Of a DNA stretch of 64,000 bases, positions 2,120 to 19,856 are shown one piece after another. Both the position numbers and the translations under genes were made by a program. The stretch spans positions 3,995,501 through 4,059,500 of the forward strand of contig NZ_LZEU01000001.1 in assembly GCF_014490745.1 (NCBI RefSeq), given 5' to 3'. The notes below the pieces were generated by a model. It worked only from the letters and a program-made list of their open reading frames with translations, ran no database searches and was not told the origin of the DNA. The stretch's first letter is position 1. The number at the start of each line of letters is the position of its first letter. Source of the stretch: Pseudomonas alcaligenes. GTDB lineage: Bacteria > Pseudomonadota > Gammaproteobacteria > Pseudomonadales > Pseudomonadaceae.

Positions 2120-2122
2120 GGC

Positions 2123-5100
2123 TTACTCGACCTTCAGCTCGGCCAGCGCCGCTTCCTGCTCGACGGCCTGCTGCTGCGGGTCGTACATGCGCACGTAGCG
2201 CGCCGGCGGCAGGTGGAACTGGCCTTTCTGCGAGAAGCGCACCAGGTGACGCAGCTGCACGGTGCCCTGCAGGCTGTCGACCGGCACCGCATAGAGCATC
2301 TGCCCCGGCTCGTGGCGGGCCTTCTCCAGCGGCGCCGCCTCTTCCGAGTCGAGGCCGCTGATCTGGATGCCCCAAGTGGTGCGCTCAACATCGGCGCCCG
2401 GCGGCAGCGGCACTTCCAGCAGGCCGTAACGATAGGCATGTTCCTCGTCGCCGCCCTGCAGAGTCACTTCGTCGAGGTAGAGCTCGTCGCTGGACAGCGG
2501 GCCATCGCCGACTTCCTCGACACTGAAGCTGAACGCCGCTTCGCCCGGTACCAGGCGCAGCAAACGCCGGCTGACCTGCACCGGCACGTTGCCGGCCGGC
2601 GTCTCGGCGCTGTCGAAAGTCAGGGTCGCCGGTAACGAACCGACCTGCTCGGCAGGCAGCGGCAGCTCCTTGGGCTGCTCCTTGCCCAGCCACTGCCACC
2701 AGGTTTCCCCGGTAGCGCCCTGCTGGGCCGCCCAGCCGGCACCCGGTGCCGGTACGCTGGCCGGCGCCGCTTGCTCGATGCTGTTGTTCAGCCAGGTCAG
2801 CGCCAGAGCGCGCTCCAGGGTCGCCTGCTCCGGCGCCAGGCGCTGCAGCAGGGCATTCACTTCCTGCGGCTGCGGCCGGCCCTGGGCCAGGCGTACGGCC
2901 TCGGCGAACGGCTGACGGCTGTCGGCCACGCTCTGGCGCGCGGCCTCCAGACCGGTACTGAAGGCCGCCGGCAGGCTGACCTTGCTCTGCGCCGCCAGGT
3001 CGGCAGCCAGCACCCGCGCCAGGGCCAGGCCAAGCTGCGAGTTCGGTGCGGCCATCACCGGGCTAGTCAGGCCGGTATCGTCCAGGCTGACTTCGTCGCC
3101 GTCGCCAGCCTGGCCCAGGTCGGCCAGCAGACCTTCGAGCAAGGTGTTCACCGGCAACTGCATCTCGCGGGCGAAGTCGAGGATCAGCGCGCGCTGCAGC
3201 AACGGCGTGTTGGCCGCCTGCGCGGCATAGACCTCCAGCACACGCTGCCAGTGTTCCGGCGGCAGGCTGATATGCAGGGCGCGGCTGGCATGCCAGTCGG
3301 CGTAGTAGGCATAGGCGGTGAGGAAGGCATCGGCATCGCCCTCCTCGCCCCACCAGGTGAACCCGGCTTCCGGGCCGGCCATCTGCACCAGGCGCAGGCG
3401 GCTGTTCTGCATGATCAGGCGCAGACGGTCGCCAATGCGTGCGTCACCCTTGGCCAGCGTCGGGTAGGCCAGGCTCAACGGCAGCAGGCGGCTGGAGGTC
3501 TGTTCGACACAGCCGTAGGGGTACTCGATCAGGTCGTCGAGAGCCGAGCGGAACAGCGCTTGCGAGCTGTTATCCAGACGCAGGCGGATATTGCCGGCGT
3601 CGGCCGGCAGGCTCAGCGGGTTGCTGCCCGGATTGAGGCTCAGGCTCTGGGTGTGCATGCGCTGCCAGCCTTCGCCGGCCACGCGCAGGGTCACGCCAAG
3701 GGCATCCACCGGCTTGCCGTCCTGCACCAGCTCGGCACGCCATTCGCCGCCCTCCAGGGCAGTCGGCGGCAACGCCAGGTAGTTCACGCCTTTCTCCAGC
3801 TCCACCGCCTGGCGCTGTTCCTGGCCGGCGTAGTGGGTGACCAGTTCGGCCTTGGTGCTCTCCTCGCCCTGATTGAAGGCAAACAGGCCCAGCTGCGGCT
3901 TATCACCCTCGCGGAACAGGGTCGGCCCGCTCCACTTCAGGTACAGCGGCTTCTCGGAGCGGATGAACTGCTTCTTCTGCCCCACTTCGCCAGCCTCGTT
4001 GACCGCGCGCACGGTGATGCGCCAGCGGGTCAGCGAGTCGGGCATGCGGAAGGTCAGGCGCGCCTTGCCGTCGGCATCGGTGACCAGATCGGGCTGCCAG
4101 GCGGCGGTATCGACTTCCTCGCGGCGCGGCCGCTCCAGCACCTTGACCCCGCGTTCGCTGCGGTTGGCGCGGCCCGGTGCGGTCGGGTTGCCCGGCAGGG
4201 CCACGTCGTAACTGATGAACGACAGGCTGGCGCTGGTGCGCACGTTGTTGCGCCGTGGGTGATAGAAGAACTGGTCGATGCCCGGGGCGATTTCCGGCTG
4301 CAGGGCATAGATCATCTCGTCCACCACGCTGACCGTCAGACGGGTGGCCGCCGGCTTGCCCTGGAACTGGGTGGCGAGGTCGACAGTCACGGTTTCGCCC
4401 GGCTGGTAGCGTTCCCTGTCCGGGGTAATGGCAATTTCCACCTGCGCCTTGGCCACCTTGATCCCGGCGTTCTGGAAGCTGTAGTCGCCGCCCTTGGTGT
4501 AAAGCACGGAGAAGGTCAGGTTGGGCGCGAAGTGGTCGTCGACCGGGATGCGCGCGCGGTACTGGGTGTCGTTGAGCTTCTCCAGCTTGAGCCAGTCGCC
4601 GCCCTTGGACAGCAGCGCGGTAGCTTCCACCTGGTCGCGCTCCAGCGTCAGCAGCGCATCGCCGACCGGCTCGGGGAAGGTGATCAACGCCTGAGCTTCG
4701 GCCCCGGCCTGGTACTCGTCCTGGTCGAACACCACTTCCACGGTGCCGGCTACCGCCTTGACCCCGTCGCCGCTGACCGCGTGGCCGGTGGCGCCGAGGA
4801 TCAGGCCGTGCTTGTCCTTGAGGGTGATGCTGTAGGTGCCGGGGCGCTCGAAGCTGAGGCTGAAGCCCTGGTCGTCGTCATCCAGGCTGGCGCTGTGCTG
4901 GCTCTGGTCTTCCAGGCGCACCCACTCGTAGCTGGCCGGCTTGAGTTCGCTGGCCTGCTCGCTGTGGTAGCTGAACGGCACGGCCTCGCCCACCGCGCTG
5001 AAGCGCTGCGGTGCGTCCAGGCGATAACGCGCGGCGCCGCGCTCGATGAGGATCTCCTTGCTGACCTTGACCCGGTAGGCGGCGCCATCGCTGGCGAACA

Positions 5101-6697
5101 CGGTGAGCAGGTAGCGGCTCGGCTTGTCCGCCGCCGGTAGTTCGAGGGCGGCGCGGCCCTGGTCGTCGGTGCTCAGCTCGCTGCTGGAGAGTTCCACCGG
5201 GAACTGGCCGAGGTACTGCAGCTCGTTGTCGATCATCGACAGCTGCTGGGCACGCAGGCTCAGCTGCAGACGGGCGTTCTTCACCGGCTTGCCGTCCGGG
5301 TAGAGCAGCACCAGGTTGCCACTGACCTTCTCGCCGGTGCGGAAGTCCGGCTTGCTCAGGTCGAGGGCGATCTCGAAGTGCGGCTTGATGTAGTCGGCCA
5401 CGCGGAAGGCACTGCTGTACAGCTGGTCGCGGTAGCTGAAGCGCAGCTCGTAGCCACCGGCCACGGCGTTGTCCGGCAGCTGGAAGCGGCCCTGGGTGCC
5501 GGCCTTGCTGTCGAGCGCCAGGTCGAGGTTCTGCAGCACGGTGCCGGTGGCATCCAGCACGCTGAGCTTGAGCGGCGCTGCCTGGGCGGCCACCGAGTCG
5601 CGGGCGTTCTTGAACTCGCGGCCGACTATCTTCACTTCCACCCAGTCGCCGGGGCGGTACAGCGGGCGGTCGGTGAAGGCATACAGCTTGGTATCGTAGA
5701 TTTCGCTGTCGTAATAGAAGTTCTCGGAGACGAACACCCCGCCTTCGCTGTCCTCACCGAGCACGTAGGAGCGCTCCGGGCTGGCGTGTTTCAAGCGCAG
5801 CAGGCCCTGCTCGTCGGTGCTGCCGCTGCTCATCACGCCCAGGCCATCGCTCCACAAAACTTTGGCCCCGGCCATCGCACCGCCGTCACGCTTGTTGGCC
5901 GTCCATACCAGCAGCTCGTTGCCGGCGATCTTGCTCACCGCCACCGTGTTGGAAACGAACACCACGGTAGTCGCGCGGAACTTGCCGACCAGCGCCTCGA
6001 CCAGATACAGCCCCGGCTTGAGCTTACCCAGCGGGATATACACGTTGCCCGGATTGACGCTGACGAAGGAACTGGACGAGCCGGCCAGCTCGACGCCCTT
6101 GGGCGGCTGGATCGGCTTGGCATCCCACAGCGGGTAGCGGAACTGACTGACCAGCGGCAGGCCCTTCATCGGCGCGTACTGCGGCTGCGCCTCGAACGGC
6201 GTGGGCGCCTTGATCGCGTCCCCCATCTTCAGCTCCGGCGCTTCCTCGGTGACCTGCTTGCGCGACTCGTAGGAGAAGGCGCGCTGCATCACCCGCCGCG
6301 AGGTGCGGTACCAGCTGTCCCACAGGTAGCTCAGGGTGTTGGACAGGCCCTCGCCCTTGAACTCGCCCTCGGCCACCACCCGGTGCAGGTTCTTCTGCCG
6401 TTTGAGGAAGTCCAGCGGCTTTTCGATGCGGTACACGCGCATGTCAACGCCGCCGTAGGGCTCCATCATGTAGCGGCGGTAGTCGCGTCCCGGCGCTTCC
6501 AGGCGTACCTGGGCCACTTCGTCGGTGGCGAAGCTGGCATCGGCGAGGAGGAAGAACGACTGTCCGGCCACCGGCGAATAGTTGCTCGACTCGACATTGT
6601 CGTCGGCCTGGCTAACGCCCAGCGGCAACAGGCCGAGCAGCAGGGCGGCAGCGGCCAGTCGCGGCAGGCGCAGGCTGTTCATCGCGGGAGACTTCAT
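2123..6697 (-). CDS. magD: MagD: periplasmic alpha-2-macroglobulin (YfaS type)
   Basis: A protein of about 1524 residues of the bacterial alpha-2-macroglobulin family, which traps proteases after cleavage of a bait region. A signal peptide ends near VSQA. Beta-rich MG repeats fill most of the length, and the sequence has PYGCVEQ with Cys about 1063 and Gln about 1066 (codons 3500-3511), the CxEQ thioester pattern followed by a helical TED-like domain ([16 protein letters not shown]). I chose ATG 6697 because GAAGG lies 8 nt upstream; ATG 6712 overlaps the magC stop as ATGA and is the alternative. In P. aeruginosa the homologue is reported to bind neutrophil elastase, to be cleaved from 165 to 100 kDa, to lie in the periplasm at the inner membrane and to be under RetS/RsmA control. 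Whether the thioester forms here is untested. Confidence 0.95.
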
Positions 6698-6708
6698 CGA
6701 GTGAGCCT

Positions 6709-7347
6709 TCATCGCGAAAGGAAATGCAGTCGATAGACGCCGATAAAGTTGGGATTGGATTCGTCGGGTATCCATCGGGTGTCCTTCCATGTCATGAGTT
6801 GTTGCAGGCTCACCGAGCGCATGCCGTTGTCTGTCTTGGTGGTGGTGCCAGTGTGATAGGCGATGTTGCGGCCCATCCAGATCATCAGGTGCTGGTCGTC
6901 ACCCTGGTCGAAGAAGATCAGGTCGCCGGGGCGCGCCTGGTTGAGGTCGCGGCCGAGGAACTGGCTGTTGTACTGGATCAGTTTGATCGCGTTGACGTAC
7001 GGCCCGACCCGTCCGCCGCCCTGCTGCCACTGCTGGGCGAGCTGACGCTGCTCGGCGCTCAGTTCCAGCTCCGGCGGCAGGTAGCGGTTGGACAGGCCGT
7101 TGGCGCGCAGCCACTTGGCGTCGTGCAGCTTGAGCGCCTCGTTGGCGGCGAAGCGCACCAGGCCGGCACAGTCCTGCTGCTGCCAGCGCGGGCTGGGGCC
7201 CTGGCGCAGCTGCTCCTGGGCGATGCGCACGAACCAGGCGCGAAACACCTGCGACTGCTGCGCGTCCAGCGCCGGCGCGGCCTGGGCCAGCAGCGCCGGG
7301 CTGCACAGCAGAAGGCAGGCAAACGCTATGTAATGCCGTGCTCTCAC
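6709..7347 (-). CDS. magC: MagC: DUF1175 (YfaT-like) protein with an NlpC/P60-like Cys-His site
   Basis: A 212-residue secreted protein. I place the start at GTG 7347, which overlaps the magB stop as GTGA and is followed directly by a signal peptide ([20 protein letters not shown]); GTG codons at 7359 and 7374 are in frame but would lengthen the n-region. The family is DUF1175. Residues 59-65 (DCAGLVR, Cys60) and 141-165 (GDLIFF, then HLMIWMG with His153, then AYHTG with His165) follow the Cys-His layout of NlpC/P60 cell-wall peptidases. This suggests a papain-like hydrolase acting on peptidoglycan stem peptides or on a protein partner, which is inference. The gene is translationally coupled to magB upstream and lies 11 bp from the chosen magD start. 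Confidence 0.85.
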
Positions 7348-9182
7348 AGCGCGCGCCACTGCAGCGGCAGCCACTGCCAGGCGCTGCTGGCTTCGCTATC
7401 GGCCGGCAGGGTCAGGGCGTATTTGCCGTGGGTGGACAGGGCGCGCAGCTTGGGCAGCAGATTGCTCTGCGCGGCGTTGCGGAACACCGGTTCCATGTCT
7501 TCCGGCAGGCTCTCCAGGGTCTCGCGCTCGAACAGCGAAGCCAGGGTCTGCGGCGCCAGGTAGGCCGGCACCAGGGCATCCTTGGGCAGCACTTCGGCCA
7601 GCGGCGGGAAGCGCTTGTCCAGGGTATCCAGGGCCTTGCTCACCAGGCGGTCGTCCAGCGAGAACAGCAGGGTCGAGCCGTGCCGCGCCAGGCTGACGCG
7701 GAAAAAACCGGTGGAGGCCAGGGCATCCGGATTCTCGGCTTCGCCGCCCGGATACTGGCCGAAGTTGGAGCCGACCTGGCGCTGCCACTTGTGCGTGGCG
7801 CCTTGCTCGCTGTCTTCGACCGGGAAGGCGCCGCCCTCGACATTGGCTTCCCAGGCGCCGATCAGGCTGGCGAACAGCTTGCCCAGCTCGGCATCGGTCT
7901 GCGCACCGGCCTCGCCCTTGAGCGTGCCGACCAGCAGTGGCGAGTGCAGGCGCGACTCGGCGTACCAGCACAGGCCGGCGGTGCCGCTGAGCTGGCCGCC
8001 CAGCTCGGCAGCCACCTTGGCCTCGGCACCAACCTTGTTCAGCAAGCGCTCGGGCACGGCCGCCGCCACTGGCAGGGCGACGCAGGCACTAGCGCCCATG
8101 GGCATGGCGCGCCACACCGGGGTGAAGTCGAACTTGCCCTGGTCTTCCACTTCGTTGAGGGCCAGGAAGCTGTGCCAGCCCTGGCTGTCCATCTCGAAAC
8201 GCAGACCGGCGAAGGCCGGGATAAAGCGCTGGTAGCCGAGGGCGAGGAAATCCGAACTGAGGCTGATGCGCTGCTCCAGCGCGCCACGTGCCTCCAGACC
8301 GAAACGCTCGGGGAACGGATGCTGGCCGGCCAGCAGCGCCTCGACCGCATCGGTCGACACCTTGGCCAGCAGCGGGCCGCGCGGCTCTTCGGGCTCGACC
8401 GGCGCGGCGGCGGTCTCGTCAGCCGGCACCGCCGCGTCGGGATCGACAGCAGCCACCTCGGTCTGGTCATCCGCGCTGGCCGCCTCGGCAGAAGCCGGTT
8501 CAGGCTCCGGCTCGGGGGCGAAAAGCATGTCGGTGCTGGACAGCAGCAACAGCTGGTCGCCATGGGAGGCGAACAGCAGGGAGCGGTCGTTGTTGTAGCG
8601 CAGGCGGTAGAACGGCACCGGGGCGCCATCGACGAGGAACTCGCCGGCCTGGCTCAACTGGGTGTCGTCCAGCGCCACCTTGGCCAGCGGCTCCAGGGCC
8701 TTGGCCAGGCCGCCGCGCTCGATCACCACCAGGAAGTGCTTGAGGCGGCCGCCGGCATCGCGCCACAGGGCGACCTCGGCCGGCTGGTCGAGCAGCTCGT
8801 CGAGCAGGTTGTCGCGCAGCTGCAGGTCGTGCTCGTAGATGATCCGCCGCAGGCTGCCGGTCAGGCCGAGGCGGTCGGCGTTGGCCTCGTAATAGAACAC
8901 CAGGTCTTCGGTCAGGGTGTCACGCAGCAGCGGCACGTTGAGCAGATCCTTGGGCAGGCGACTGAGCGAGGCGCTTTCGATCAGCACGTCGGGGCGCGCC
9001 AGATCCAGGCCCAGCAGGTTCTGCTCGCCCAGCTGGCGTTCGCCCTGCTGCTCATGCCACAGCCAGCCGAAGATGCCGGCGGCGGCCACCGGTACGGCCA
9101 CCGCCAGGGCGATCAGCAGCGGGCGCAGCCGGCGGCCGGTTGGCGCGCCTTCGCTGGCAACGGGTGTGGTGTTCTCGCTCAT
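7344..9182 (-). CDS. magB: MagB: membrane-anchored DUF2138 (YfaA-like) protein
   Basis: A 612-residue protein with a short basic cytosolic N-terminus, one membrane helix at about residues 20-42 ([20 protein letters not shown]) and a large periplasmic part. It matches the DUF2138 family (YfaA in E. coli). An acidic, low-complexity Pro/Ala/Glu stretch lies near residues 223-262 and probably forms a flexible linker. In P. aeruginosa MagB is reported in a complex with MagA, MagD and MagF at the inner membrane, so an anchoring role for the macroglobulin is likely. It starts 37 bp after magA, and its stop overlaps magC as GTGA. No catalytic motif was seen. Confidence 0.88.
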
Positions 9183-9219
9183 GTCTACAGACCCCAGTTC
9201 ATCCCTGCGGCGGGAGCAT

Positions 9220-10008
9220 TCAATAGTTGAAGGACTTGATCAGCAGCAGATCGCCGATGGTGCGCAGCGGCACCACGAACGTCTCGCGCTTCTCGTTCAC
9301 GGTGTTCTCGTTGAACACCAGGCTGATCTGCGAGGTGATCACCTCGTTGAGGTTACTGCCAGCCTGGAAGTTGTAACCCTGGCTGTTCAGGTTGCCCCAG
9401 TAGTTCACGTAAATCAGGTAGGTGCCGTGCAGCGGCGCGGTCATGGTGAACATTTCCGGGCCGGGGCCGTCGACGCTGTCGACATCCAGGCCGCCACCAT
9501 TGCTCATCACCGGATCGGCCCAGAAGGCGTGCTGGCCATCGGGGGTGACCACGTGCAGGTCGAGTTCGGCCTGTGGGTCGTCCCAGCCGAGGACGATGCG
9601 TACCCGCGCTGGGGTCTTCAGATGGTTGGCTTCATAGAACTGCACGCGGCGCAGCGGCTTGCCGTCGGCGCGCAGCTCGACGCTGTTGGAGCCGGCGCCA
9701 AAATTGTAAGGGCGGACAAAGCGTCCTTCGGCGTCAGTGTAGAGGGGCAGCGGGTTGCCATTGACCGCCAGCGTATAAGGCTGGCGCAGGCCCTGGGTGC
9801 CGGCGAGCTTGCCTTCGATCAGGCTGCGATTGCGCTGCGCGCCGCGGTCGATCGGCGGCGTCGGGTAGGCGACGCGGGCGTTCTCCGTGCGGTCGAGCAG
9901 GCCGGAGTAATGCCAGCCAGCAGTCGGGCCATCCAGGCTCGCAGTGGGGTCTGCCAGGGCCGCCGACGCGAACAGCGTCAGGCACAGCGGCAACAGCGGG
10001 GGGCGCAT
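9220..10008 (-). CDS. magA: MagA: secreted DUF2135 (YfaP-like) protein, first gene of the mag operon
   Basis: A 262-residue protein with a signal peptide (MRPPLLPLCLTLFASAALA) and a C-terminal DUF2135 domain (RIVLGWDDPQAELDLHVVT, then YLIYVNYWG). ATG 10008 is preceded by AAAGGA at a good distance. It is the promoter-proximal gene of six (magA-magF), a set known in P. aeruginosa as a single element regulated through RetS and RsmA. The AAGGA that forms its ribosome site also fits an RsmA-type ANGGA motif, but one such motif proves little. It is paralogous to MagF, the last gene, so the operon is bracketed by two copies of the same fold. Confidence 0.88.
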   Translation of the reverse strand: MRPPLLPLCLTLFASAALADPTASLDGPTAGWHYSGLLDRTENARVAYPTPPIDRGAQRNRSLIEGKLAGTQGLRQPYTLAVNGNPLPLYTDAEGRFVRPYNFGAGSNSVELRADGKPLRRVQFYEANHLKTPARVRIVLGWDDPQAELDLHVVTPDGQHAFWADPVMSNGGGLDVDSVDGPGPEMFTMTAPLHGTYLIYVNYWGNLNSQGYNFQAGSNLNEVITSQISLVFNENTVNEKRETFVVPLRTIGDLLLIKSFNY

Positions 10009-10306
10009 GATTAATCCTTTAAGGCGCTAAGTTGCCAAGGCTATCGACTGGCAAGGCGCCTTTCAATCGCCAGTCAGCGGAACCGCTCAGAGTTTGGCAG
10101 CCAATCACATTCATGCTGCCCGAACGGACAGCTTTCAGCCCAGCGGCAGGCCGCCAGGCGAGCGTGACAGGCATCACAAATCGCTCGAATTCTGTGCGCC
10201 CGCCCAGCTCTGCCAGGAGGCCGAAAAGCGCATAATTTGCCGGCCGATTGCCGGTACATTCGGTGCCGCGGGCGCAATGCCCGCACCATCATTTGCAGGG
10301 ATGCAC
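10009..10306. promoter_or_regulatory. Divergent control region between the two macroglobulin operons
   Basis: About 300 bp separate the start of magA (minus) from the start of the second macroglobulin gene (plus). The only promoter-like element I can point to is CATAAT at 10231-10236, with CTGCCA 15 bp upstream, for the plus gene. That is a weak match with a short spacer. A small hairpin GCGGGC-GCAAT-GCCCGC lies at about 10268-10284, in the plus-strand leader. AAAGGA immediately upstream of magA is its ribosome site. No convincing -35/-10 pair was found for the mag operon. Both operons could share regulators bound here. Confidence 0.4.
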
Positions 10307-13300
10307 ATGTTCGCCTCACTCGTTACGGCCTGCCGCCGCGTATTCGCCTTTCTCTCCTTTATTGTCCTTGGTGTGCTGCGCCTGGGGCGCTGGCTACTCG
10401 CTGCCCTGTTCGGCAGCTGGCAGCCGCCGCTGTGGCTGCGCAAGCTCGGCCAGGGCCTGAGCGCCGGCGCGCGCTGGCTGCGCGCGCGGCCCAAGCAGAC
10501 GGCCCTGGGCCTGCTCGGCCTGGCCCTGCTCGGCGGCGCCGGCGCCTATGTCTGGCACTGGTACCAGAACCTGCCGGTGCCGCACACCGTGGCCTACTCG
10601 GTGAAGGAACCGCTGCTGACCGACTACAAGCGCGAGCCGATCCAGGTCGACACCCTGTGGATCAACTTCGGCGAATCCGCCGCGCCGCTGGACGCCATCG
10701 GTAAAGAGGTGAAACAGGGCGTGCGCCTGGAACCCGCCGTGGCCGGCACCTGGCACTGGGCCAGCGACCTCAGCCTGGTCTTCACCCCGGCCGGCGACTG
10801 GCCGATCGACCAGCACTACAGCGTCAGCCTGGACAAGGAAGGTCTGCTCGCCGACGGTGTACTGCTGCAGGACTATGACTTCAAGTTCGCCACCGCGCCG
10901 TTCAAGGCCAGCATCGCCAGCAGCGAGCTGTACCAGGATCCGGTGGTGCCAAGCCTGAAGAAGCTGGTGACCACCCTGGCCTTCTCCCACCCGGTGGATG
11001 AAGAGTCGGTGCGCCAACGCGTCAGCGTCAGCCTGGATCGCGGCCTGGAATACCGCGACAAGGACGTTACGCCGACCCCGGACATCAGCTTCAGCAAGAA
11101 CAAGCTCAACGCCTACGTGCATTCCGCCCCGCTGGCCACGCCGCTGGAAACCAGCAACGTCAGCCTGCTGCTGGACAAGGGCGTGCAGGCCCGCGACGGT
11201 GGCAATGCCAGCGAGCAACCGCTGCACACGGCCGTCAGCGTGCCCGGGCGCTACCGCCTGACCTTCAGCGCCGCCAATATCCAGTTCGTCGACAACGACC
11301 GCGGCGAGCCGGAACCGGTGCTGATGTTCAGCAGTTCCAGCGCGGTGGCCGACGAAGCCATCGCCAAACAGGTGCAGGTCTGGCTGCTGCCCGAGCACAA
11401 CCCGCGCAACGGCAAGCACTGGAGCGAATCGGAAGTCGACGAGCAGCTGCTGGCCCGCTCCGAGCGTCTCACCCTCAGCCACATTCCCAGCGTCGAGCCG
11501 CTCAACAGCCTGCATGCCTTCAAGTTCAAGGCCGAACCGGGGCGCTACCTGTACGTGAAGGTAGCGGCCAGGGTCGAGGCGGTCGGTGGCTACCTGGCCA
11601 AGGATCCGACCTACAGCCTGCTGCAGATGCCCAAGTACCCGCGCGCGCTGAACTTCCTTTCCGACGGTGCCCTGCTCAGCCTCAATGGCGAGAAGCAGCT
11701 CGGCTTCCTCTCCCGCGGCGTACCCGGTGCCCACGTGGAGATCGCCCGCCTGCTGCCCAACCAGCTGCACCACCTGGTCGACCAGAACTACGGCAGTTTC
11801 GCCCGCCCGGACTTCAGCAACAGCTACTTCGATCGCCTGGTCGAGCGCATGAGCCTGGATCTGCCGATCAGCAACAGCGACCCGGCCAAGACCCACTACG
11901 ACCATGTCGACCTGGCGCCCTACCTGAATGCCGACGGCGGCCGCCGCGGCATCTTCGTGGTCAAGCTGAGCCCGCAGGATCGCCCGGCCGACGAAACCTT
12001 CGACTCCTACTACAGCGATGACGACGGCCCGCGCGACCTGCGCTTCATCGTCGTCACCGACCTCGGCATCATCGCCAAGCGCAGCAGCGACGGCAGCCAC
12101 GACCTGTTCGTGCAGTCGCTCAGCAACGGCGGCGCGGTGGCCGGTGCCCAGGTCGAGATCATCGGCCGCAACGGCCTGCCGGTGGCCAGCGGGCAGACCG
12201 ACGCCGCCGGCCAGGCGCACTTCGCCAAGCTCGATGAGCTGCGCCGCGAGAAGACCCCGCTGATGTACGTGGTGACCCTGGGCAACGACCAGTCGTTCCT
12301 GCCGGTGGCGCGCAGCCAGCACCGCCTCGACCTGTCGCGCTTCGATATCGGCGGCCAGTACGAGAACGGCGAACCGGGCAAGCTCGGCGCCTACCTGTTC
12401 ACCGACCGCGGCCTGTACCGCCCGGGCGAGACCGCGCATATCGCCATGATCGTCCGTAGCGGCGACTGGAAAGGCCAGCTGCAGGGCCTGCCGGTGGAGC
12501 TGGACGTGCGCGACCCGCGCGGCCAGAGCGTGCTGCGCCAGCAGCTGAAACTGTCCGCCAGCGGCTTCGAGAGCCTCGACTTCGCCAGCAGCGAAGCAGC
12601 ACCGGCCGGCACCTACAGCGCCAGCCTCAGCCTGATCGACAAGGACGAGCGGCGCATCGACCTGGGTAGCACCGAGTTCAAGGTGCGCGACTTCGAGCCG
12701 GATCGCATGAAGGTCAGCGCCACCCTGTCCAAGGCCCCGGTGAAGGGCTGGATCGCCCCCGGGCAGGTCGAGGCCAAGGTCAAGGCCATGCACCTGTTCG
12801 GCGCCCCGGCTTCCGGCCGGCGGGTTACCGCCGACATGATCCTCGCCCCGGCCTATGCCGCCTTCGACGGCTACGCCGACTACCGTTTCCGCATCAGCAA
12901 CTCGCTGAAGGAGAACAGCACCGAGGAACTGGCCGAGACCCAGACCGACGACAACGGCGAGGCCGTGCTCGACCTGCGCCTGGAGCGCTTCGCCGCCAGC
13001 ACCTACCAGCTCAACCTGCTGGCCAAGGTCTACGAGGCCGAGGGCGGCCGTAACGTCGCCGCACAGAGCAGCCTGATGGTGTCCTCGGCGCCCTGGCTGG
13101 TCGGGGTCAAGAGCGTCGACTCGCTGGACTATGTGAGCAAGGGCGCCAAGCGCGAAGTGCGCTGGCTGGCCATCGGCCCCGATCTCAAGCCGCTGGCGGT
13201 GGACGGCCTGTCCACCGAACTGGTCGAGCACCGCTACGTCTCGGTGCTGATCAAGCAACCCAACGGCACCTATAAGTACGAGTCGCGGGTCAAGCACATC

Positions 13301-16147
13301 CCGCGCGGCAGCCAGGCGCAAGCCCTGGCCGCCAGCGGCAGCAGCCAGACCCTGGACACCAGCGAGCCGGGCGACTTCACCCTGACCCTCAAGGGCGCCG
13401 ACGGCACGCCGCTGAACCAGGTCGACTACAGCGTCGCCGGCCAGGGCAACAGCAGCCGCTCGCTGGAACGCAATGCCGAGCTGCAGCTACGCCTGAACAA
13501 GGCCAGCTACGCCCCCGGCGATGACATCGAGATCAGCATCCGCGCGCCCTACACCGGCGCCGGGCTGATCACCATCGAGCGCGACAAGGTCTACAGCCAC
13601 CAGTGGTTCAAGGCCGACAGCACCAGCAGCGTGCAGCACATCCGCCTGCCCGCCGAGCTGGAGGGCAACGCCTACGTCAACGTGCAGTTCGTCCGTGACG
13701 GCGCCTCGCCCGAGGTCTACATGAGCCCGCTGTCCTACGGCGTGGCGCCCCTGAAGATCGACCTCGACGCGCGGCGCATCCCGCTGCAGATCGCCGCTGC
13801 CGAGCACATCGAGCCGGGCCAGCCGCTGCACATCAGTGTGCGCAGCGACCGCGCCGGCAAGGCGGTGATCTACGCGGTGGACGAGGGCATCCTGCAGGTG
13901 GCGCGCTACCAGACGCCCGACCCGCTGGCGCAGTTCTTCCAGAAACGTGCCCTGGAAGTGGAAACCAGCCAGATCCTCGACCTGCTCCTGCCGGAGTTCA
14001 GTCGCCTGCTCAACGCGGCGGCTCCCGGTGGTGACGGCGAAGACCTGCTCGGCGCCCACCTCAACCCGTTCAAGCGCAAGCGCAAACCGCCGGTGGCCTT
14101 CTGGTCGGGGCTGATCGACCTGCCGGAAGGCGAGACCACCCTGACCTACGACGTGCCGGACTACTTCAACGGCAAGCTGCACCTGTTCGCCGTGGCCGTC
14201 GACGACAGCCGCATCGGTGTGGTCGAAGGCGCCACGGAAGTCCGCGGGCCGCTGGTGATCACCCCCAACGTGCCGGCCTTCGTCGCTCCGGGCGATGTGT
14301 TCAAGGTCAGCGCCGGGGTATTCAGCAACCTGGAGCAGCCGAGCAAGGTCAAGGTCAGCGTGGAAACCAGCGCTGGCCTCAAGCTCGCCACGGCCGCGCC
14401 GACCGAGCTGGAACTGGCGCCGCGCAAGGAAGGCGTAGTGGAGATCGACCTGCAGGCCCTGGAAGCCCTGGGTTCGGCCGATCTCACCTTCGTCGCCACC
14501 CTGCCCGACGGCAAGCGTGTGCAGATCGGTGAAACCACCTCGGTGCGGCCGCTGGTGGAACGCCGCGTGGCGCTGACCCTGGGCCGCTTCGATGGCTCCA
14601 GCCATGAGGTGCAGATCAGCCGCGACCTCTACCCGCAACTGCGCAACGTGCAGTTCGGCCTGGCCAGCTCGCCGCTGGTATGGGCCACTGGCCTGCAGAG
14701 CTACCTCGACGACTACGGCTACAGCTGCACCGAGCAATTGGTGTCCAAGGCCATGCCGGCCCTGGTCTGGGGCAGCTCGGCGGAGAGCCTCGACCAGCAG
14801 TCGCTGCCGGCCTTCGACAGCGCCGTGCGCACCCTGCGTTCGCGGCAGAACCTGGAAGGTGGCTTCGGCCTGTGGGCAGCCAACCCGCAGGCATCGCCCT
14901 ACGCCAGCCTGTACGCCACCGACTTCCTGATCGAAGCCAAGGAACGCAACTACCCGGTACCAAGCGACCTGCTGGGCCGCGCCAACAGCTACCTGTCGCA
15001 ACTGGCCAACGGCCCCAGCGAAGGCCTGGAGGAACTGCGCAACCGCGCCTACGCCGCCTACCTGCTGACCCGCCAGGGCGTGGTCACCAGCGGCGCCCTG
15101 GCCGATATCCGCGAGCGCTACGAGACCTTCCACAGCAAGAACTGGCAGCAGGACATAGGCGCCGCCTACCTGGCCGCCAGCTACAAGCTGCTCAAGCAGG
15201 ACAAGCAGGCCGACCAGCTGTTCGAGCAACAGGTCTGGCGCAGCCTGGAGAAGGGCTGGAGCCGCTACGGCCTGTACTACGATCCGCTGGTGCACGACGC
15301 CGAGCACCTGCACCTGCTCAGCAAGCACTTCCCCGAGCAGCTCGACGAGGTGCCGGTGAAGCTGCTCGACGCCCTCGGCCAGCGCCTTACCGAGCAGCGC
15401 TACAGCTCGCTATCCGCTGCCCTGCTGCTGCGTGCCCTGGACGGCTACGGCGAGCGGGCCGGCGCCGGCCTCAAGCTGAGCGTCAGCGCCTGGCTGGGCA
15501 AGCAGGCGGGTGAGCAGGCGCTGAGCCTCAGCGGCAAGCCGCCACGCAGCGCCGTGCCGCTGGCGACCAAGATGCTGCTGCCACGCAAGGAAGGCGATGC
15601 CCCGGCCTTCTACATGCTCAGCGAGGCCGGCTACGACCGCGGCGCGCCGGACAAGGTGCTCAGCCAGGGCCTGGAAGTGACCCACGAGTACATCGGCCTG
15701 GATGGCGAAGCGCTGCAGCAGGTCAAGGTCGGCGAAGAATTCCTGGTGCGCCTGCGCCTGCGCGCCAAGGACTTCGACCAGGTGCAGCAGGTGGCGGTGG
15801 TCGACCTGCTGCCGGGCGGTACCGAGCCGGTGTACAACCAGCCGGCGCCGGTCACCCCCAGCGACGACGAGAGCGACGAGTACAGCGAGGCAGACCAGGA
15901 GCCGAGCTGGCAGCCGCCGGTGGGCGAACCGGGACAGAGCACCTGGCAGCCGGAATTCGCCGATGTGCGCGACGACCGCGTGGTGCTCTACGGCACCGTC
16001 TACCGCGACGCCGCCACCTTCGTCTACCGCGTCCGGGCGACCAACGCCGGCACCTTCGGCACGCCGCCGGCCTACGCCGAAGGCATGTACGACACCACCC
16101 AGCAGGCACGCGGCAGGGCCGGTGTAATAGAGATAATCAGACCATGA
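10307..16147 (+). CDS. Large membrane-anchored alpha-2-macroglobulin (YfhM/ECAM type)
   Basis: About 1946 residues, longer than the E. coli homologue YfhM (about 1650). ATG 10307 is chosen because GCAGGG sits 6 nt upstream; ATG 10301 is the alternative. The N-terminus has two hydrophobic segments (about 10-34 and 64-86, the second containing ALGLLGLALLGGAGAYVW) and no lipobox, so it is probably held in the inner membrane by a helix rather than a lipid. MG domains follow. The thioester motif CTEQ is at Cys1474-Gln1477 (codon 14726), followed by an alpha-helical TED-like domain and a C-terminal receptor-like domain with an acidic loop (SDDESDEYSEADQE). Family knowledge: such proteins trap invading proteases in the periplasm and are usually encoded next to PBP1C, as here. 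Two small genes intervene, joined by ATGA overlaps. Confidence 0.93.
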   Translation: MFASLVTACRRVFAFLSFIVLGVLRLGRWLLAALFGSWQPPLWLRKLGQGLSAGARWLRARPKQTALGLLGLALLGGAGAYVWHWYQNLPVPHTVAYSVKEPLLTDYKREPIQVDTLWINFGESAAPLDAIGKEVKQGVRLEPAVAGTWHWASDLSLVFTPAGDWPIDQHYSVSLDKEGLLADGVLLQDYDFKFATAPFKASIASSELYQDPVVPSLKKLVTTLAFSHPVDEESVRQRVSVSLDRGLEYRDKDVTPTPDISFSKNKLNAYVHSAPLATPLETSNVSLLLDKGVQARDGGNASEQPLHTAVSVPGRYRLTFSAANIQFVDNDRGEPEPVLMFSSSSAVADEAIAKQVQVWLLPEHNPRNGKHWSESEVDEQLLARSERLTLSHIPSVEPLNSLHAFKFKAEPGRYLYVKVAARVEAVGGYLAKDPTYSLLQMPKYPRALNFLSDGALLSLNGEKQLGFLSRGVPGAHVEIARLLPNQLHHLVDQNYGSFARPDFSNSYFDRLVERMSLDLPISNSDPAKTHYDHVDLAPYLNADGGRRGIFVVKLSPQDRPADETFDSYYSDDDGPRDLRFIVVTDLGIIAKRSSDGSHDLFVQSLSNGGAVAGAQVEIIGRNGLPVASGQTDAAGQAHFAKLDELRREKTPLMYVVTLGNDQSFLPVARSQHRLDLSRFDIGGQYENGEPGKLGAYLFTDRGLYRPGETAHIAMIVRSGDWKGQLQGLPVELDVRDPRGQSVLRQQLKLSASGFESLDFASSEAAPAGTYSASLSLIDKDERRIDLGSTEFKVRDFEPDRMKVSATLSKAPVKGWIAPGQVEAKVKAMHLFGAPASGRRVTADMILAPAYAAFDGYADYRFRISNSLKENSTEELAETQTDDNGEAVLDLRLERFAASTYQLNLLAKVYEAEGGRNVAAQSSLMVSSAPWLVGVKSVDSLDYVSKGAKREVRWLAIGPDLKPLAVDGLSTELVEHRYVSVLIKQPNGTYKYESRVKHIPRGSQAQALAASGSSQTLDTSEPGDFTLTLKGADGTPLNQVDYSVAGQGNSSRSLERNAELQLRLNKASYAPGDDIEISIRAPYTGAGLITIERDKVYSHQWFKADSTSSVQHIRLPAELEGNAYVNVQFVRDGASPEVYMSPLSYGVAPLKIDLDARRIPLQIAAAEHIEPGQPLHISVRSDRAGKAVIYAVDEGILQVARYQTPDPLAQFFQKRALEVETSQILDLLLPEFSRLLNAAAPGGDGEDLLGAHLNPFKRKRKPPVAFWSGLIDLPEGETTLTYDVPDYFNGKLHLFAVAVDDSRIGVVEGATEVRGPLVITPNVPAFVAPGDVFKVSAGVFSNLEQPSKVKVSVETSAGLKLATAAPTELELAPRKEGVVEIDLQALEALGSADLTFVATLPDGKRVQIGETTSVRPLVERRVALTLGRFDGSSHEVQISRDLYPQLRNVQFGLASSPLVWATGLQSYLDDYGYSCTEQLVSKAMPALVWGSSAESLDQQSLPAFDSAVRTLRSRQNLEGGFGLWAANPQASPYASLYATDFLIEAKERNYPVPSDLLGRANSYLSQLANGPSEGLEELRNRAYAAYLLTRQGVVTSGALADIRERYETFHSKNWQQDIGAAYLAASYKLLKQDKQADQLFEQQVWRSLEKGWSRYGLYYDPLVHDAEHLHLLSKHFPEQLDEVPVKLLDALGQRLTEQRYSSLSAALLLRALDGYGERAGAGLKLSVSAWLGKQAGEQALSLSGKPPRSAVPLATKMLLPRKEGDAPAFYMLSEAGYDRGAPDKVLSQGLEVTHEYIGLDGEALQQVKVGEEFLVRLRLRAKDFDQVQQVAVVDLLPGGTEPVYNQPAPVTPSDDESDEYSEADQEPSWQPPVGEPGQSTWQPEFADVRDDRVVLYGTVYRDAATFVYRVRATNAGTFGTPPAYAEGMYDTTQQARGRAGVIEIIRP

Positions 16148-16833
16148 TGAAGAAGCACATCATTCTAAGCACATTAATTTGCATGCCAAGTTTGCTCTAT
16201 GCGCAGGCACAACCGAGCCCGACACTCGAAGCCAACTTGCTCGCAAGTGACTCAACGCAATGGCCACTCACCGCACTATTACTCGAAGTAAGTGGAGAAG
16301 GTCTGCCTATTCCTATAAAGACCTATTGCAAGGGCGAAGGTAACTGCTGGGACATGGAACTGACCATCAATAACACTCCGGCTCCTGTAGTGAATCAGAT
16401 GACCATTCCTGACCGGCTCAATTATGGTCACGCCTATGTATGGCTAACCTATAAAGGCTCTGCAGTAGACAAGGGCGCCGTACAAAACGTAAAAGTTTCG
16501 CTCACTACATATGGTCTTTCTTATTCGCCTCCTCGCCAGACCAAAAATGATCAGCCACCGCTGATCGTCGACGGGATACACAGTGACAGCATCATTTCCT
16601 CACCGTGGCCCGCCTTACTAAAACTTATTGACCAAAAATTGAACGATTATTGGAAAATCCTACCGAAAACCACTCAGCAGTCACTACTTGCAGAACAGCG
16701 GATCTGGCTGAGTTATCGCGATGCGGAGTGTGCCTTCCAGGCTCAAACAGGAATTTCTCCCATTGATAGATGCCTTTATCAGGTAACCGAAAAACGACTC
16801 TCTCGCCTACCACCCGTGGAGGTGCGCCAATGA
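16144..16833 (+). CDS. Secreted protein with LprI-like (DUF1311) C-terminal domain, copy 1
   Basis: A 229-residue protein overlapping the macroglobulin stop as ATGA. A signal peptide (MMKKHIILSTLICMPSLLYA) leads to an unrecognised N-terminal domain with a Cys pair (62, 68) and then a C-terminal part, about 157-225. That part has the LprI/DUF1311 pattern: LNDYWKIL, then EQRIWLSYRDAECAFQ, then CLYQVTEKR, with Cys196 and Cys210. LprI of Mycobacterium tuberculosis is a lysozyme inhibitor; transfer of that function here is inference. The next gene is a diverged copy with all four cysteines conserved. Base composition breaks sharply with the neighbours: two 60-base lines inside the gene (16261 and 16501) contain 28 and 29 G/C, whereas adjacent genes are visibly far richer. 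This suggests recent acquisition into the operon. Confidence 0.8.
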   Translation: MMKKHIILSTLICMPSLLYAQAQPSPTLEANLLASDSTQWPLTALLLEVSGEGLPIPIKTYCKGEGNCWDMELTINNTPAPVVNQMTIPDRLNYGHAYVWLTYKGSAVDKGAVQNVKVSLTTYGLSYSPPRQTKNDQPPLIVDGIHSDSIISSPWPALLKLIDQKLNDYWKILPKTTQQSLLAEQRIWLSYRDAECAFQAQTGISPIDRCLYQVTEKRLSRLPPVEVRQ

Positions 16834-17534
16834 AACCAATTTTTTTCTTGGCAGCGCTTTGCTTCGTCAGCGAGATAACTCTGGCCGAAGGCTTCTATAA
16901 CGCAAAAATCGAAGCCATAGATGACAGTGAGTGGCCGCAAGTAAATATGCTGCTTAAGGTTTACGACGAAAGCATAGAGCCCGAACAGTTCTCTGATGCA
17001 CTTGAACGCCCAACCCCCTATGACTGCCAGGCAGGCCTTGAAAAGCGCGGCTGGAGTTGCTGGAGCATTGATCTCCAAGAGAATGGGCGACACGTGACCG
17101 ATGTTCATCAGGTAAGCGTCGCTACGCGGCCTGGTGATAATTGGAGCTATCTTTGGTTGAGTTATCACTCGACGCTTGCCTCAATTGATGAAGGGCTATT
17201 GACCCTTAACCTAGAGATTCCCGAATGGAGTCTACGCAGTGCCAACAGCCAACAACCGCTACAACTCTACTCTGCAAAGACCCCGGCCTTGTCAGGCTCC
17301 CCATGGAAATTCATGCTCCAACGCAGTGATCAGCAGCTAAACACCAACTATCAGCACCTGCAGGAAAACCTCTCTGAGCCCGAACAAACGCTGCTACGCA
17401 AAGCTCAGCGAGCATGGTTACAACTGAGAGGTGCTCGCTGTCCAGCGCAACTCAAGAGCAGGCAAACTCGATGCCTGTACATGACCACTCAGGATCGCGC
17501 CGAAGAACTACAACAGCTACGCCAGCAGCTCTGA
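16830..17534 (+). CDS. Secreted protein with LprI-like (DUF1311) C-terminal domain, copy 2
   Basis: A 234-residue protein whose ATG at 16830 overlaps the previous stop as ATGA and has GGAGG upstream. The signal peptide is MKPIFFLAALCFVSEITLAE. It aligns with the preceding protein throughout: SCWSIDL against NCWDMEL, YLWLSYHS against YVWLTYKG, GSPWKFMLQRSDQQLNTNY against SSPWPALLKLIDQKLNDYW. The C-terminal LprI-like core is KAQRAWLQLRGARC followed by RCLYMTTQDRA. Cys66, Cys77, Cys204 and Cys215 correspond to the four cysteines of copy 1, so two disulfides are likely. It lies 18 bp before pbpC, in the same operon as the macroglobulin. A periplasmic lysozyme inhibitor or a partner of the macroglobulin or PBP1C is plausible. 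No direct evidence exists in the sequence beyond the fold-like pattern. Confidence 0.8.
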   Translation: MKPIFFLAALCFVSEITLAEGFYNAKIEAIDDSEWPQVNMLLKVYDESIEPEQFSDALERPTPYDCQAGLEKRGWSCWSIDLQENGRHVTDVHQVSVATRPGDNWSYLWLSYHSTLASIDEGLLTLNLEIPEWSLRSANSQQPLQLYSAKTPALSGSPWKFMLQRSDQQLNTNYQHLQENLSEPEQTLLRKAQRAWLQLRGARCPAQLKSRQTRCLYMTTQDRAEELQQLRQQL

Positions 17535-17552
17535 GACGAGATCATTCGCTGC

Positions 17553-19856
17553 ATGCGAGTTACTAAACCAGCCACAGTCACAGCAGTTCTTTTGGCGGCA
17601 CTGCTAACCCTGCGCCTGTGGCCGCATGCGCCGCTGCGCGAAGCCGCGCCCGCCTCGCGCCTGGTGCTGGCCCAGGACGGCGAGCTGCTGCGCCTGACCC
17701 TGGCCAGTGACGGCCAGTACCGTCTGTGGCTGCCGCTGGAGCAGATGGCGCCGGCGATGATCGACACCCTGCTGCTCAAGGAAGACCGCCACTTCTACCG
17801 CCATCCCGGCGTCGACCCCAGCGCCCTGCTGCGCGCGGCCCTGGCCACCTACGGCGGCGGCGCGCGCCAGGGCGGCTCGACCCTGAGCATGCAGCTGGCG
17901 CGGCGCCTGTACGGCCTCAACTCGCGGCATATCGCCGGCAAGCTGCAACAGATCGTCCTGGCCCTGTGGCTCGAGGCGCGCCACAGCAAGCACGACATCC
18001 TCGAGGCCTACCTCAACCTGGCGCCCATGGGCGGCAATATCGAGGGCGTCGAGGCGGCAAGTCGTATCTATTTCGGCAAGTCCGCCGAACAGCTGTCGCT
18101 CAGCGAGGCCCTGGCCCTGGCGGTGATCCCGCAGCAGCCGGGGCGCCGCGCGCACTTCGGCCCGTCTTTGCAGAAGGCCCGCCTGCAGTTGCTGGACATC
18201 TGGCTCGCCGAGCACCCGGATGATCCGCGCAACGCCGGCCTGCTGCGCCTGCCGCTGGAAGCGCGTACGCGCGCGCAGCTACCGTTCCGCGCGCCGCACC
18301 TGAGCGAGCAGCTGCTGGCCAGCCGCCGCGATGCGCTGCTGCACAGCACCCTCGACTTGCGCCTGCAGCGCCAGCTGGAACAGCTGATCACCCAGTTCGT
18401 CAGCGAACACGCCGACCAGGGCGTGCACAACGCCACGGCAATCCTGGTCGACAGCCGTGACCAGGCGGTGAAGGCGCTGGTCGGCTCGGCCGACTACTTC
18501 GCTGCCGACCTGCATGGCCAGGTCAACGGCGTGCAGGCGCGCCGCTCGCCCGGCTCGACGCTGAAACCCTTTCTCTACGGCCTGGCCCTGGATCAGGGGG
18601 TGATCCAGCCAATGAGCATCATCAAGGATGCGCCCAGCGCCTTCGGCGCCTTCCAACCGGAGAACTTCGACGGCAAGTTCGCCGGCCCGCTGACCGCCCA
18701 GGATGCGCTGATCCGCAGCCGCAACGTGCCGGCCGTGTGGCTGGCCAGCCAGGTGCACGAACCTTCGCTGCACGGCCTGCTGCAGCGTTCCGGCGTGCAG
18801 CGCCTGCGCGAAGAGGAGTTCTACGGCCTGGGCCTGGCCTTGGGCGGCGGCGAGCTGACCCCGGCCGAGCTGGCGCGCCTGTACCTGATGCTGGCCGGCG
18901 ACGGCCGCCTGCGCAGCCTGCGCTACACCCGCGACGACCCGGCCACCGTGGGCGCGCAGCTGCTGTCGCCACAGGCGGCCTTCATGGTGCGCGACATGCT
19001 GCGGCACAACCCGCGCCCGGACGGCCTGCCGCCCGACAGCCGCGGACGCAACTGGCCGGTGGCCTGGAAGACCGGCACCTCCTGGGGCTTCCACGACGCC
19101 TGGAGCGCCGGCCTGGTCGGCCCCTACGTGCTGGTGGTGTGGGTCGGCAACTTCGACGGCCAGCCCAACCCGGCCTTTATCGGCCTGAAGACCGCCGCAC
19201 CGCTGTTCTTCCGTATCGCCGATGCCCTGCCCCTGGCCCTGCCACAGGTACAGCCGGCGGCCGACAAACCGCCCGCCGGGCTGACCCGGGTCGAGGTCTG
19301 TGCCGCCTCCGGCGAGCTGCCCAACCGCTGGTGCCCGCAGACGCGCAAGACCTGGTACTGGCCGGGCGTGTCGCCGATCCGGGTGTCCACCCTGCATCGT
19401 CCGGTGATGGTCGACCGTGCCACCGGCAAGGCCGCCTGCCCGCCCTTCGATCCGGCCAGTAGCGAGCTGCAGGTGTTCGAGTTCTGGCCCAGCGACCTGC
19501 AGCGCCTGTTCGCCGCCGCCGGCCTGCCTCGCCGCACCCCGCCGGATGCGCTGCGCGACTGCCAGGTACAGCCGGCGATCAACAGCGACGAGGTACCGCG
19601 CATCACCTCGCCGCTGACCCAGGTCACCTACAGCCTGCGCCTGTCGCAGCCGCAGGAGAGCATTCCGCTGAGCGCCAACGCGGCCAGCGACGCGCGCCTG
19701 CTCTACTGGTTCGCCGACCAGACCCTGCTCGGCCAGAGCACGCCGCAGGCCGGCCTGCAATGGCGCCCCGAGCGCTCCGGGCAGTACCAATTGCGGGTCA
19801 GCGACGACCAGGGGCGCAGCGCCAGCCGCGCGCTGCGGGTGGAGTTCCTGCCCTAG
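17553..19856 (+). CDS. pbpC: Penicillin-binding protein 1C (bifunctional peptidoglycan synthase)
   Basis: A 767-residue class A PBP. One N-terminal membrane helix (about 7-22) is followed by a glycosyltransferase domain with EDRHFYRHPGVD (catalytic Glu77) and QGGSTLSMQLARRLY. A transpeptidase domain follows with STLK (Ser335, Lys338), SRN as the SxN motif and KTGT (506-509). A C-terminal BiPBP-type domain (RITSPLTQVTYSLRL onward) is typical of PBP1C. Family knowledge: pbpC is commonly next to a YfhM-type macroglobulin, and the pair is proposed to repair the wall and trap proteases after envelope breach. Its TAG stop lies inside the terminal CTAG of an inserted repeat element, so the final residues may differ from relatives lacking the insertion. 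The start is ATG 17553 with a weak ribosome site. Confidence 0.95.
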   Translation: MRVTKPATVTAVLLAALLTLRLWPHAPLREAAPASRLVLAQDGELLRLTLASDGQYRLWLPLEQMAPAMIDTLLLKEDRHFYRHPGVDPSALLRAALATYGGGARQGGSTLSMQLARRLYGLNSRHIAGKLQQIVLALWLEARHSKHDILEAYLNLAPMGGNIEGVEAASRIYFGKSAEQLSLSEALALAVIPQQPGRRAHFGPSLQKARLQLLDIWLAEHPDDPRNAGLLRLPLEARTRAQLPFRAPHLSEQLLASRRDALLHSTLDLRLQRQLEQLITQFVSEHADQGVHNATAILVDSRDQAVKALVGSADYFAADLHGQVNGVQARRSPGSTLKPFLYGLALDQGVIQPMSIIKDAPSAFGAFQPENFDGKFAGPLTAQDALIRSRNVPAVWLASQVHEPSLHGLLQRSGVQRLREEEFYGLGLALGGGELTPAELARLYLMLAGDGRLRSLRYTRDDPATVGAQLLSPQAAFMVRDMLRHNPRPDGLPPDSRGRNWPVAWKTGTSWGFHDAWSAGLVGPYVLVVWVGNFDGQPNPAFIGLKTAAPLFFRIADALPLALPQVQPAADKPPAGLTRVEVCAASGELPNRWCPQTRKTWYWPGVSPIRVSTLHRPVMVDRATGKAACPPFDPASSELQVFEFWPSDLQRLFAAAGLPRRTPPDALRDCQVQPAINSDEVPRITSPLTQVTYSLRLSQPQESIPLSANAASDARLLYWFADQTLLGQSTPQAGLQWRPERSGQYQLRVSDDQGRSASRALRVEFLP

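Follow-up and report, generated by a model that had tools for sequence, protein, structure and literature searches.

Several described systems share features with the two genes reported here, A and B, which lie between an alpha-2-macroglobulin (A2M) gene and pbpC in Pseudomonas alcaligenes. The first ones are proteins with an LprI domain (PF07007). LprI of M. tuberculosis (MtLprI) is described in PMC7933661 as a lipoprotein with an MliC domain in addition to PF07007. The same source describes ScwA of Salmonella, a periplasmic protein with an LprI domain and four conserved cysteines; it controls the level of MltD and showed no lysozyme phenotype. Other members have been linked to T6SS immunity: the LprI protein SED_RS06230 of S. 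Dublin (146 aa) was proposed as immunity to a T6SS peptidoglycan hydrolase (PMC8867033), and DUF1311/LprI proteins are among the presumed immunity genes adjoining effectors of the WHIX class, which is defined by the motif WHxxxH and has partner domains that mostly attack peptidoglycan (PMC12135965).

A second group of studies concerns the macroglobulins. A type I A2M beside PBP1C has been published, as a hypothesis, as a periplasmic defence-and-repair pair (PMC5764988, PMC4498604). The type II macroglobulin MagD, which is stabilised by its operon partners, above all MagB (PMC5764988), was reported in 2025 to protect P. aeruginosa, mainly against the peptidoglycan-targeting VgrG3 and to a limited extent against Tae1; in the same report MagD gave no protection against TseH or any other class of effector that was tried, and B. 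thailandensis was withstood without it (PMC12663445). Furthermore, some Pseudomonas strains have a putative macroglobulin gene located between the T6SS effector and immunity genes tfe8/tfi8 (PMC10671463).

The features of the P. alcaligenes locus are compiled in Table 1; the window is the whole stretch of 64,000 nucleotides that was analysed. The first gene of the unit, the start of which was picked by comparison with the orthologue in genome G013, has the Pfam domains bMG3, MG2, A2M_BRD, A2M, bMG5 and bMG10 above cut-off. Its translation carries the thioester motif CXEQ within YSCTEQ, and because of this CTEQ it is classed as type I by the rule given in PMC5764988. The pbpC product shows the domains Transgly, Transpeptidase and BiPBP_C. 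An earlier note on this DNA had described two paralogous, secreted-looking reading frames between a macroglobulin gene and pbpC, and this arrangement was found exactly as claimed: A and B, and nothing else, lie between the two genes, the macroglobulin stop and the start of A share an ATGA overlap (16145-16147), as do the stop of A and the start of B (16831-16833), and 18 bases separate the end of B from the ATG of pbpC. For gene B the ATG at 16830 was taken as the start; the mechanical reading frame extends upstream to 16770. Head to head with this operon stands a type-II-like operon comprising DUF2135, DUF2138, a 221-aa ORF, an A2M with CVEQ and DUF2300. Thus, with a CXEQ A2M followed by pbpC and a type-II-like operon adjacent, the locus resembles the described type I A2M-PBP1C operon, from which it differs by the inserted pair.

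Table 1. Features of the A2M-A-B-pbpC locus of P. alcaligenes (positions refer to the window)
Feature	Position	Strand	Evidence
Adjacent divergent macroglobulin operon, context outside the unit	482..10008	-	
Type I bacterial alpha-2-macroglobulin gene, CTEQ, first gene of the unit	10301..16147	+	Pfam
Low-GC segment, limits approximate	16124..17608	.	GC profile and comparison with eight relatives
Gene A, secreted-looking LprI-family protein, 229 aa	16144..16833	+	ORF; PF07007 34.4 bits
LprI domain in A, residues 159-222	16618..16809	+	Pfam
Gene B, secreted-looking LprI-family protein, 234 aa	16830..17534	+	ORF; PF07007 40.0 bits
LprI domain in B, residues 163-227	17316..17510	+	Pfam
pbpC, penicillin-binding protein 1C	17553..19856	+	TIGR02073 824.5 bits, cut-off 494.2

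The C-terminal LprI/DUF1311-like pattern noticed earlier was confirmed by the Pfam model: in the C-terminal third both proteins score above the PF07007 cut-off of 22, with alignments spanning model positions 22-106 of 106. For the N-terminal two thirds no convincing Pfam match was obtained, and a search of NCBIfam (E up to 0.01) gave no match for A or for B. For each of them structure prediction yielded, with middling confidence, a beta-sandwich at the N-terminus and three helices at the C-terminus. In an alignment of 30 relatives, A and B included, three cysteine columns are kept in 30, 29 and 29 rows, respectively, and a fourth one in 26 rows, B having a cysteine four residues off, at residue 66; each of the 30 proteins in alignment A2 gives a PF07007 match (E up to 0.001). 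A and B cluster in the tree (100/100), A on a very long branch, and a PF07007 search of the P. alcaligenes genome (E up to 0.01) matched these two and nothing elsewhere.

These features can be compared with those of the described LprI proteins. With MtLprI they have PF07007 in common, but MliC (PF09864) is absent from their Pfam matches up to E 1, and their N-termini, read by eye, resemble a Sec signal peptide without lipobox. MtLprI was the model chosen in the earlier note. ScwA has the C-terminal LprI domain, the four conserved cysteines and, presumably, the periplasmic type in common with A and B. It is, however, described as rich in alpha-helices, whereas the N-domain predicted for A and B is a beta-sandwich, and in the parts of PMC7933661 considered there is no link of ScwA to A2M-pbpC. 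The T6SS candidates share the LprI domain and, judging by eye, the signal peptide (PMC8867033, PMC12135965), whereas the additional N-terminal beta domain predicted for A and B distinguishes them from the short SED_RS06230.

Base composition suggests a foreign origin of the pair. The low-GC segment, which the earlier note does not mention, has about 35-60% GC, compared to about 65-80% outside (60-base windows); it starts in the final codons of the A2M gene and stops about 19 codons inside pbpC. The GC content is 48% for A and 52% for B but 68-71% for their neighbours, and GC3 is 0.49 and 0.54, respectively, against 0.91 in both neighbours and 0.40-0.54 in four relatives from vgrG islands, which are described below. 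Among 398 genomes of the genus, 52 others carry this pbpC (E up to 1e-150), and in none of these are A or B found at the pbpC locus. The search with B was also run over a genus draw of 398 genomes, taken as identical since the handles agree, and gave no match in 51 of the 52; the remaining one (G338) has a match on a different contig. Direct inspection of 29 of these loci revealed no match to A or B, nor did another 22 a2m/pbpC loci, which come from 21 genomes and represent pairs that are distant or paralogous (for 17 the stretch covered just 1.5 kb upstream of pbpC, and that of L044 is without A2M). Hence the cassette is not a general one; a survey of the genes in other macroglobulin-pbpC gaps had been suggested in the earlier note. 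In three relatives a different small secreted-looking gene occupies the slot between a2m and pbpC.

Owing to the low GC and the absence from the pbpC locus of all 52 genomes, A and B look recently acquired. Since the low GC enters both flanking genes, it may have been brought in by exchange, from a donor in which a2m and pbpC already flanked the segment, or its edges may have changed later. It is conceivable that the two genes are mere newcomers, using the transcription of the operon or in decay, and functionally unconnected with A2M and PBP1C. Their low GC, the locus empty of them in relatives and the result with the B-like protein P0002, for which a search of 392 genomes (E up to 1e-20) matched the P. 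alcaligenes genome as the only one, would all agree with this. Still we consider it unlikely, as both frames are intact and ATGA-coupled, the conserved cysteines and the LprI signature are kept, and B-like proteins at 65-68% exist elsewhere.

The close relatives of B, at 65-68%, are three proteins, P0002-P0004, one of them labelled Pseudomonas sp. UBA6718; a single-sequence search with A matched A itself and nothing more, and a profile search of a large protein collection gave 40 proteins, known ones included. With B, 54 other genomes of the genus draw were matched at E up to 1e-3, 18 of them near full length. In 16 of these 18 a match to one VgrG query lies within about 10 kb, and the other two (G302 and G381) have a single gene of near-core GC close to groEL, without VgrG. 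The remaining 36 matches comprise the LprI domain only or are partial. Eight of them were examined: the partial one (G011) is a split copy in the same type of island, with VgrG, and the seven LprI-only loci are all without VgrG. The difference between 16/18 and 0/7 corresponds to a Fisher p of 7e-5, a value that ignores shared ancestry and is not a probability.

A scan of genomes from named species points in the same direction. Out of 23 loci, 13 reach into the N-domain, all of them in Pseudomonas and all with VgrG, compared to none of the ten LprI-only loci; nine of the 13 were judged to be already in the genus set (eight of the 18, and G011). With 91-97% identity to the query copy, the island VgrG proteins represent mainly one island lineage, so the counts are not independent, and to B the island relatives show only about 21-29% identity. 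Among 340 genomes drawn from the whole class, the family profile matched 19 others (E up to 1e-6), with the LprI part only. The full two-domain architecture appeared in Pseudomonas only, among the named or placed genomes searched. Against a profile of the relatives' N-domains, that of B scored 22.7 bits and that of P0002 14.7 bits, the best of 6000 shuffles reaching 7.0, and the N-domain of A scored no higher than shuffled sequences. When the test was reversed, 19 of 25 relatives exceeded the best of 5000 shuffles and six did not.

Like the T6SS candidates from the literature, the two-domain relatives of A and B are thus mostly found near VgrG, often together with an effector of WHIX type. An ORF of at least 450 aa with the sequence WHGG[IV]H, which fits the WHxxxH motif of WHIX-class effectors, is present at 12 of the 16 genus vgrG loci and at 10 of the 13 named ones, and at none of the LprI-only controls (0/7 and 0/10) or the two groEL loci. 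Among six island effectors of this kind, Pfam gave traces below cut-off in some: two have NlpC/P60 at the N-terminus, and one has GH19 at the C-terminus. At two loci (L125 and L129) the LprI relative is kept together with an effector candidate of a different type. Therefore, the target of an LprI relative cannot be read from its position; an orphan immunity gene retained after exchange of the effector is one reading of these two loci.

The P. alcaligenes genome itself has a T6SS sheath gene and two VgrG-type matches, one followed by an effector that contains WHGGVH as well as a GH19 domain scoring 29.7 bits (cut-off 25.5) and then, up to the contig end, by two secreted-looking ORFs without LprI. 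A and B do not adjoin an effector, in contrast to the published LprI candidates; their neighbours are A2M and pbpC. In having no cognate effector they resemble the orphan T6SS immunity genes of, for example, Bacteroidales and V. cholerae, which, however, are described from acquired defence systems or immunity arrays, not from inside an envelope operon (PMC12247911, PMC10470768, PMC5361080).

From this comparison, the threat to the cell wall that A and B counter may be the injected toxins of competing bacteria and not the lysozyme of animals. They would be soluble periplasmic proteins of the LprI class, immunity-like and gained horizontally, which became lodged as orphans in a type I A2M-PBP1C operon. 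Co-transcribed with A2M and PBP1C, they would bind and block peptidoglycan-cleaving effectors coming from the T6SSs of competitors, GH19 or lysozyme-like WHIX effectors being plausible targets, and A2M and PBP1C would protect and repair the compartment shared with them. We infer location, transcription, target, inhibition and cooperation alike, and give this explanation as a whole about an even chance (roughly 0.5).

In its favour are the siting of the near-full-length relatives near VgrG, as opposed to the LprI-only ones, the WHGG[IV]H ORF at most of these vgrG loci, the GC3 of A and B close to that of the vgrG-island relatives, the T6SS and GH19 effector of P. alcaligenes itself, the profile score of the N-domain of B, the published proposals of LprI immunity proteins and the reports on MagD and tfe8/tfi8. 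Against it one has to hold the lack of an adjacent effector, the two groEL relatives without VgrG, the distance of the island relatives, which belong mostly to one lineage so that few events underlie the association, the different effector type beside the relative in some islands, the N-domain of A and of six relatives in the shuffle tests, and the failure of MagD against TseH together with its dispensability against B. thailandensis. In the parts of the literature covered, inhibition of a hydrolase by an LprI domain alone is not reported from any assay.

Besides the possibility of recent newcomers discussed above, the other main rival is that A and B act on the cell's own enzymes, regulating peptidoglycan hydrolases or synthases in the manner of ScwA, or serve as partners of PBP1C or A2M. 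ScwA, as a periplasmic LprI protein acting on MltD (PMC7933661), provides a precedent, the stabilisation of MagD by MagB and other operon partners (PMC5764988) another one, and A and B are tightly coupled with the neighbouring genes. Yet the loci lacking them (29 and 22) imply that neither enzyme needs A and B, and the full-length relatives reside mostly in vgrG islands, which renders such a role improbable. Inhibition of c-, g- or i-type lysozymes from animals is the weakest explanation and very unlikely: PF07007 bears the name of a lysozyme inhibitor and both proteins exceed its cut-off, but neither has an MliC match, ScwA is without lysozyme phenotype (PMC7933661), and most full-length relatives sit in interbacterial toxin islands. 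The anti-lysozyme module proposed in the earlier note thus keeps its assignment to LprI, its operon and its notion of envelope defence, and the inhibition of host-type lysozyme has no specific support.

LprI candidates for T6SS immunity and the hypothetical A2M-PBP1C defence pair are both already known; new is their occurrence in one operon. The unit was earlier thought to be undescribed, which is correct for the inserted pair but not for defence and repair by A2M and PBP1C (PMC5764988, PMC4498604). Our literature search, with most subscription journals outside its coverage, found no article with both LprI and macroglobulin and none with the phrase 'lysozyme inhibitor LprI family'. As a speculation, based on the P. 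alcaligenes genome and three relatives, the A2M-PBP1C operon could be a dedicated anti-T6SS unit, with the gap between a2m and pbpC as a cargo slot for lineage-specific periplasmic immunity proteins; we regard this as a doubtful, rather improbable idea. The slot holds two LprI-class candidate inhibitors here, another small secreted-looking protein in three relatives and none in the others.

Genes resembling T6SS immunity genes within an A2M-PBP1C operon point to rival bacteria as a threat faced by this lineage. PF07007 proteins, P0002 among them, are named lysozyme inhibitors from the name of the family. For many of them our results suggest a likelier role than this name implies.

In the genome from which the window derives, VgrG is followed by a 1028-aa effector with the motif WHGGVH and a GH19 domain, and the two downstream ORFs are candidate immunity genes for this locus. 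In two vgrG islands of the same kind (L125, L129) the LprI relative is kept but the effector candidate, of 576 aa, belongs to a different type; one reading of this is effector exchange within the island. In genome G011 (L055, L086) the island's LprI relative is broken across frames.

The a2m-pbpC gap of three relatives (G387, G173, G013) holds a secreted-looking protein of about 93–111 aa with the motif CEHFSGEEPYD; the G013 copy had no match in Pfam. Next to the A2M-A-B-pbpC operon, the A2M of the type-II-like operon carries CVEQ, whereas CXEQ is reportedly absent from type II macroglobulins (PMC5764988).

The single two-domain LprI genes near groEL, found in two genomes, have a near-core GC of 0.61–0.62 and are apparently domesticated orphans.

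Coordinates of the features discussed
Feature	Location	Strand	Remark
VgrG-effector locus, own genome	L164 316-6910	minus	VgrG, 1028-aa effector, two ORFs
Low-GC secreted-looking ORFs	L164 983-1684, 316-780	minus	without LprI
576-aa effector candidate, vgrG island	L125 13622-15352	minus	
576-aa effector candidate, vgrG island	L129 11730-13460	minus	PG_binding_1
Type-II-like macroglobulin operon	window 482-10008	minus	head to head with A2M-A-B-pbpC operon
A2M of this operon	window 2123-6790	minus	CVEQ
Two-domain LprI gene near groEL	L120 9084-9857	minus	
Two-domain LprI gene near groEL	L121 9203-9976	minus	
CEHFSGEEPYD-motif gene	L135 1091-1426		reverse complement coordinates; between a2m and pbpC
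CEHFSGEEPYD-motif gene	L136 1145-1426		between a2m and pbpC
CEHFSGEEPYD-motif gene	L062 10788-11087		between a2m and pbpC
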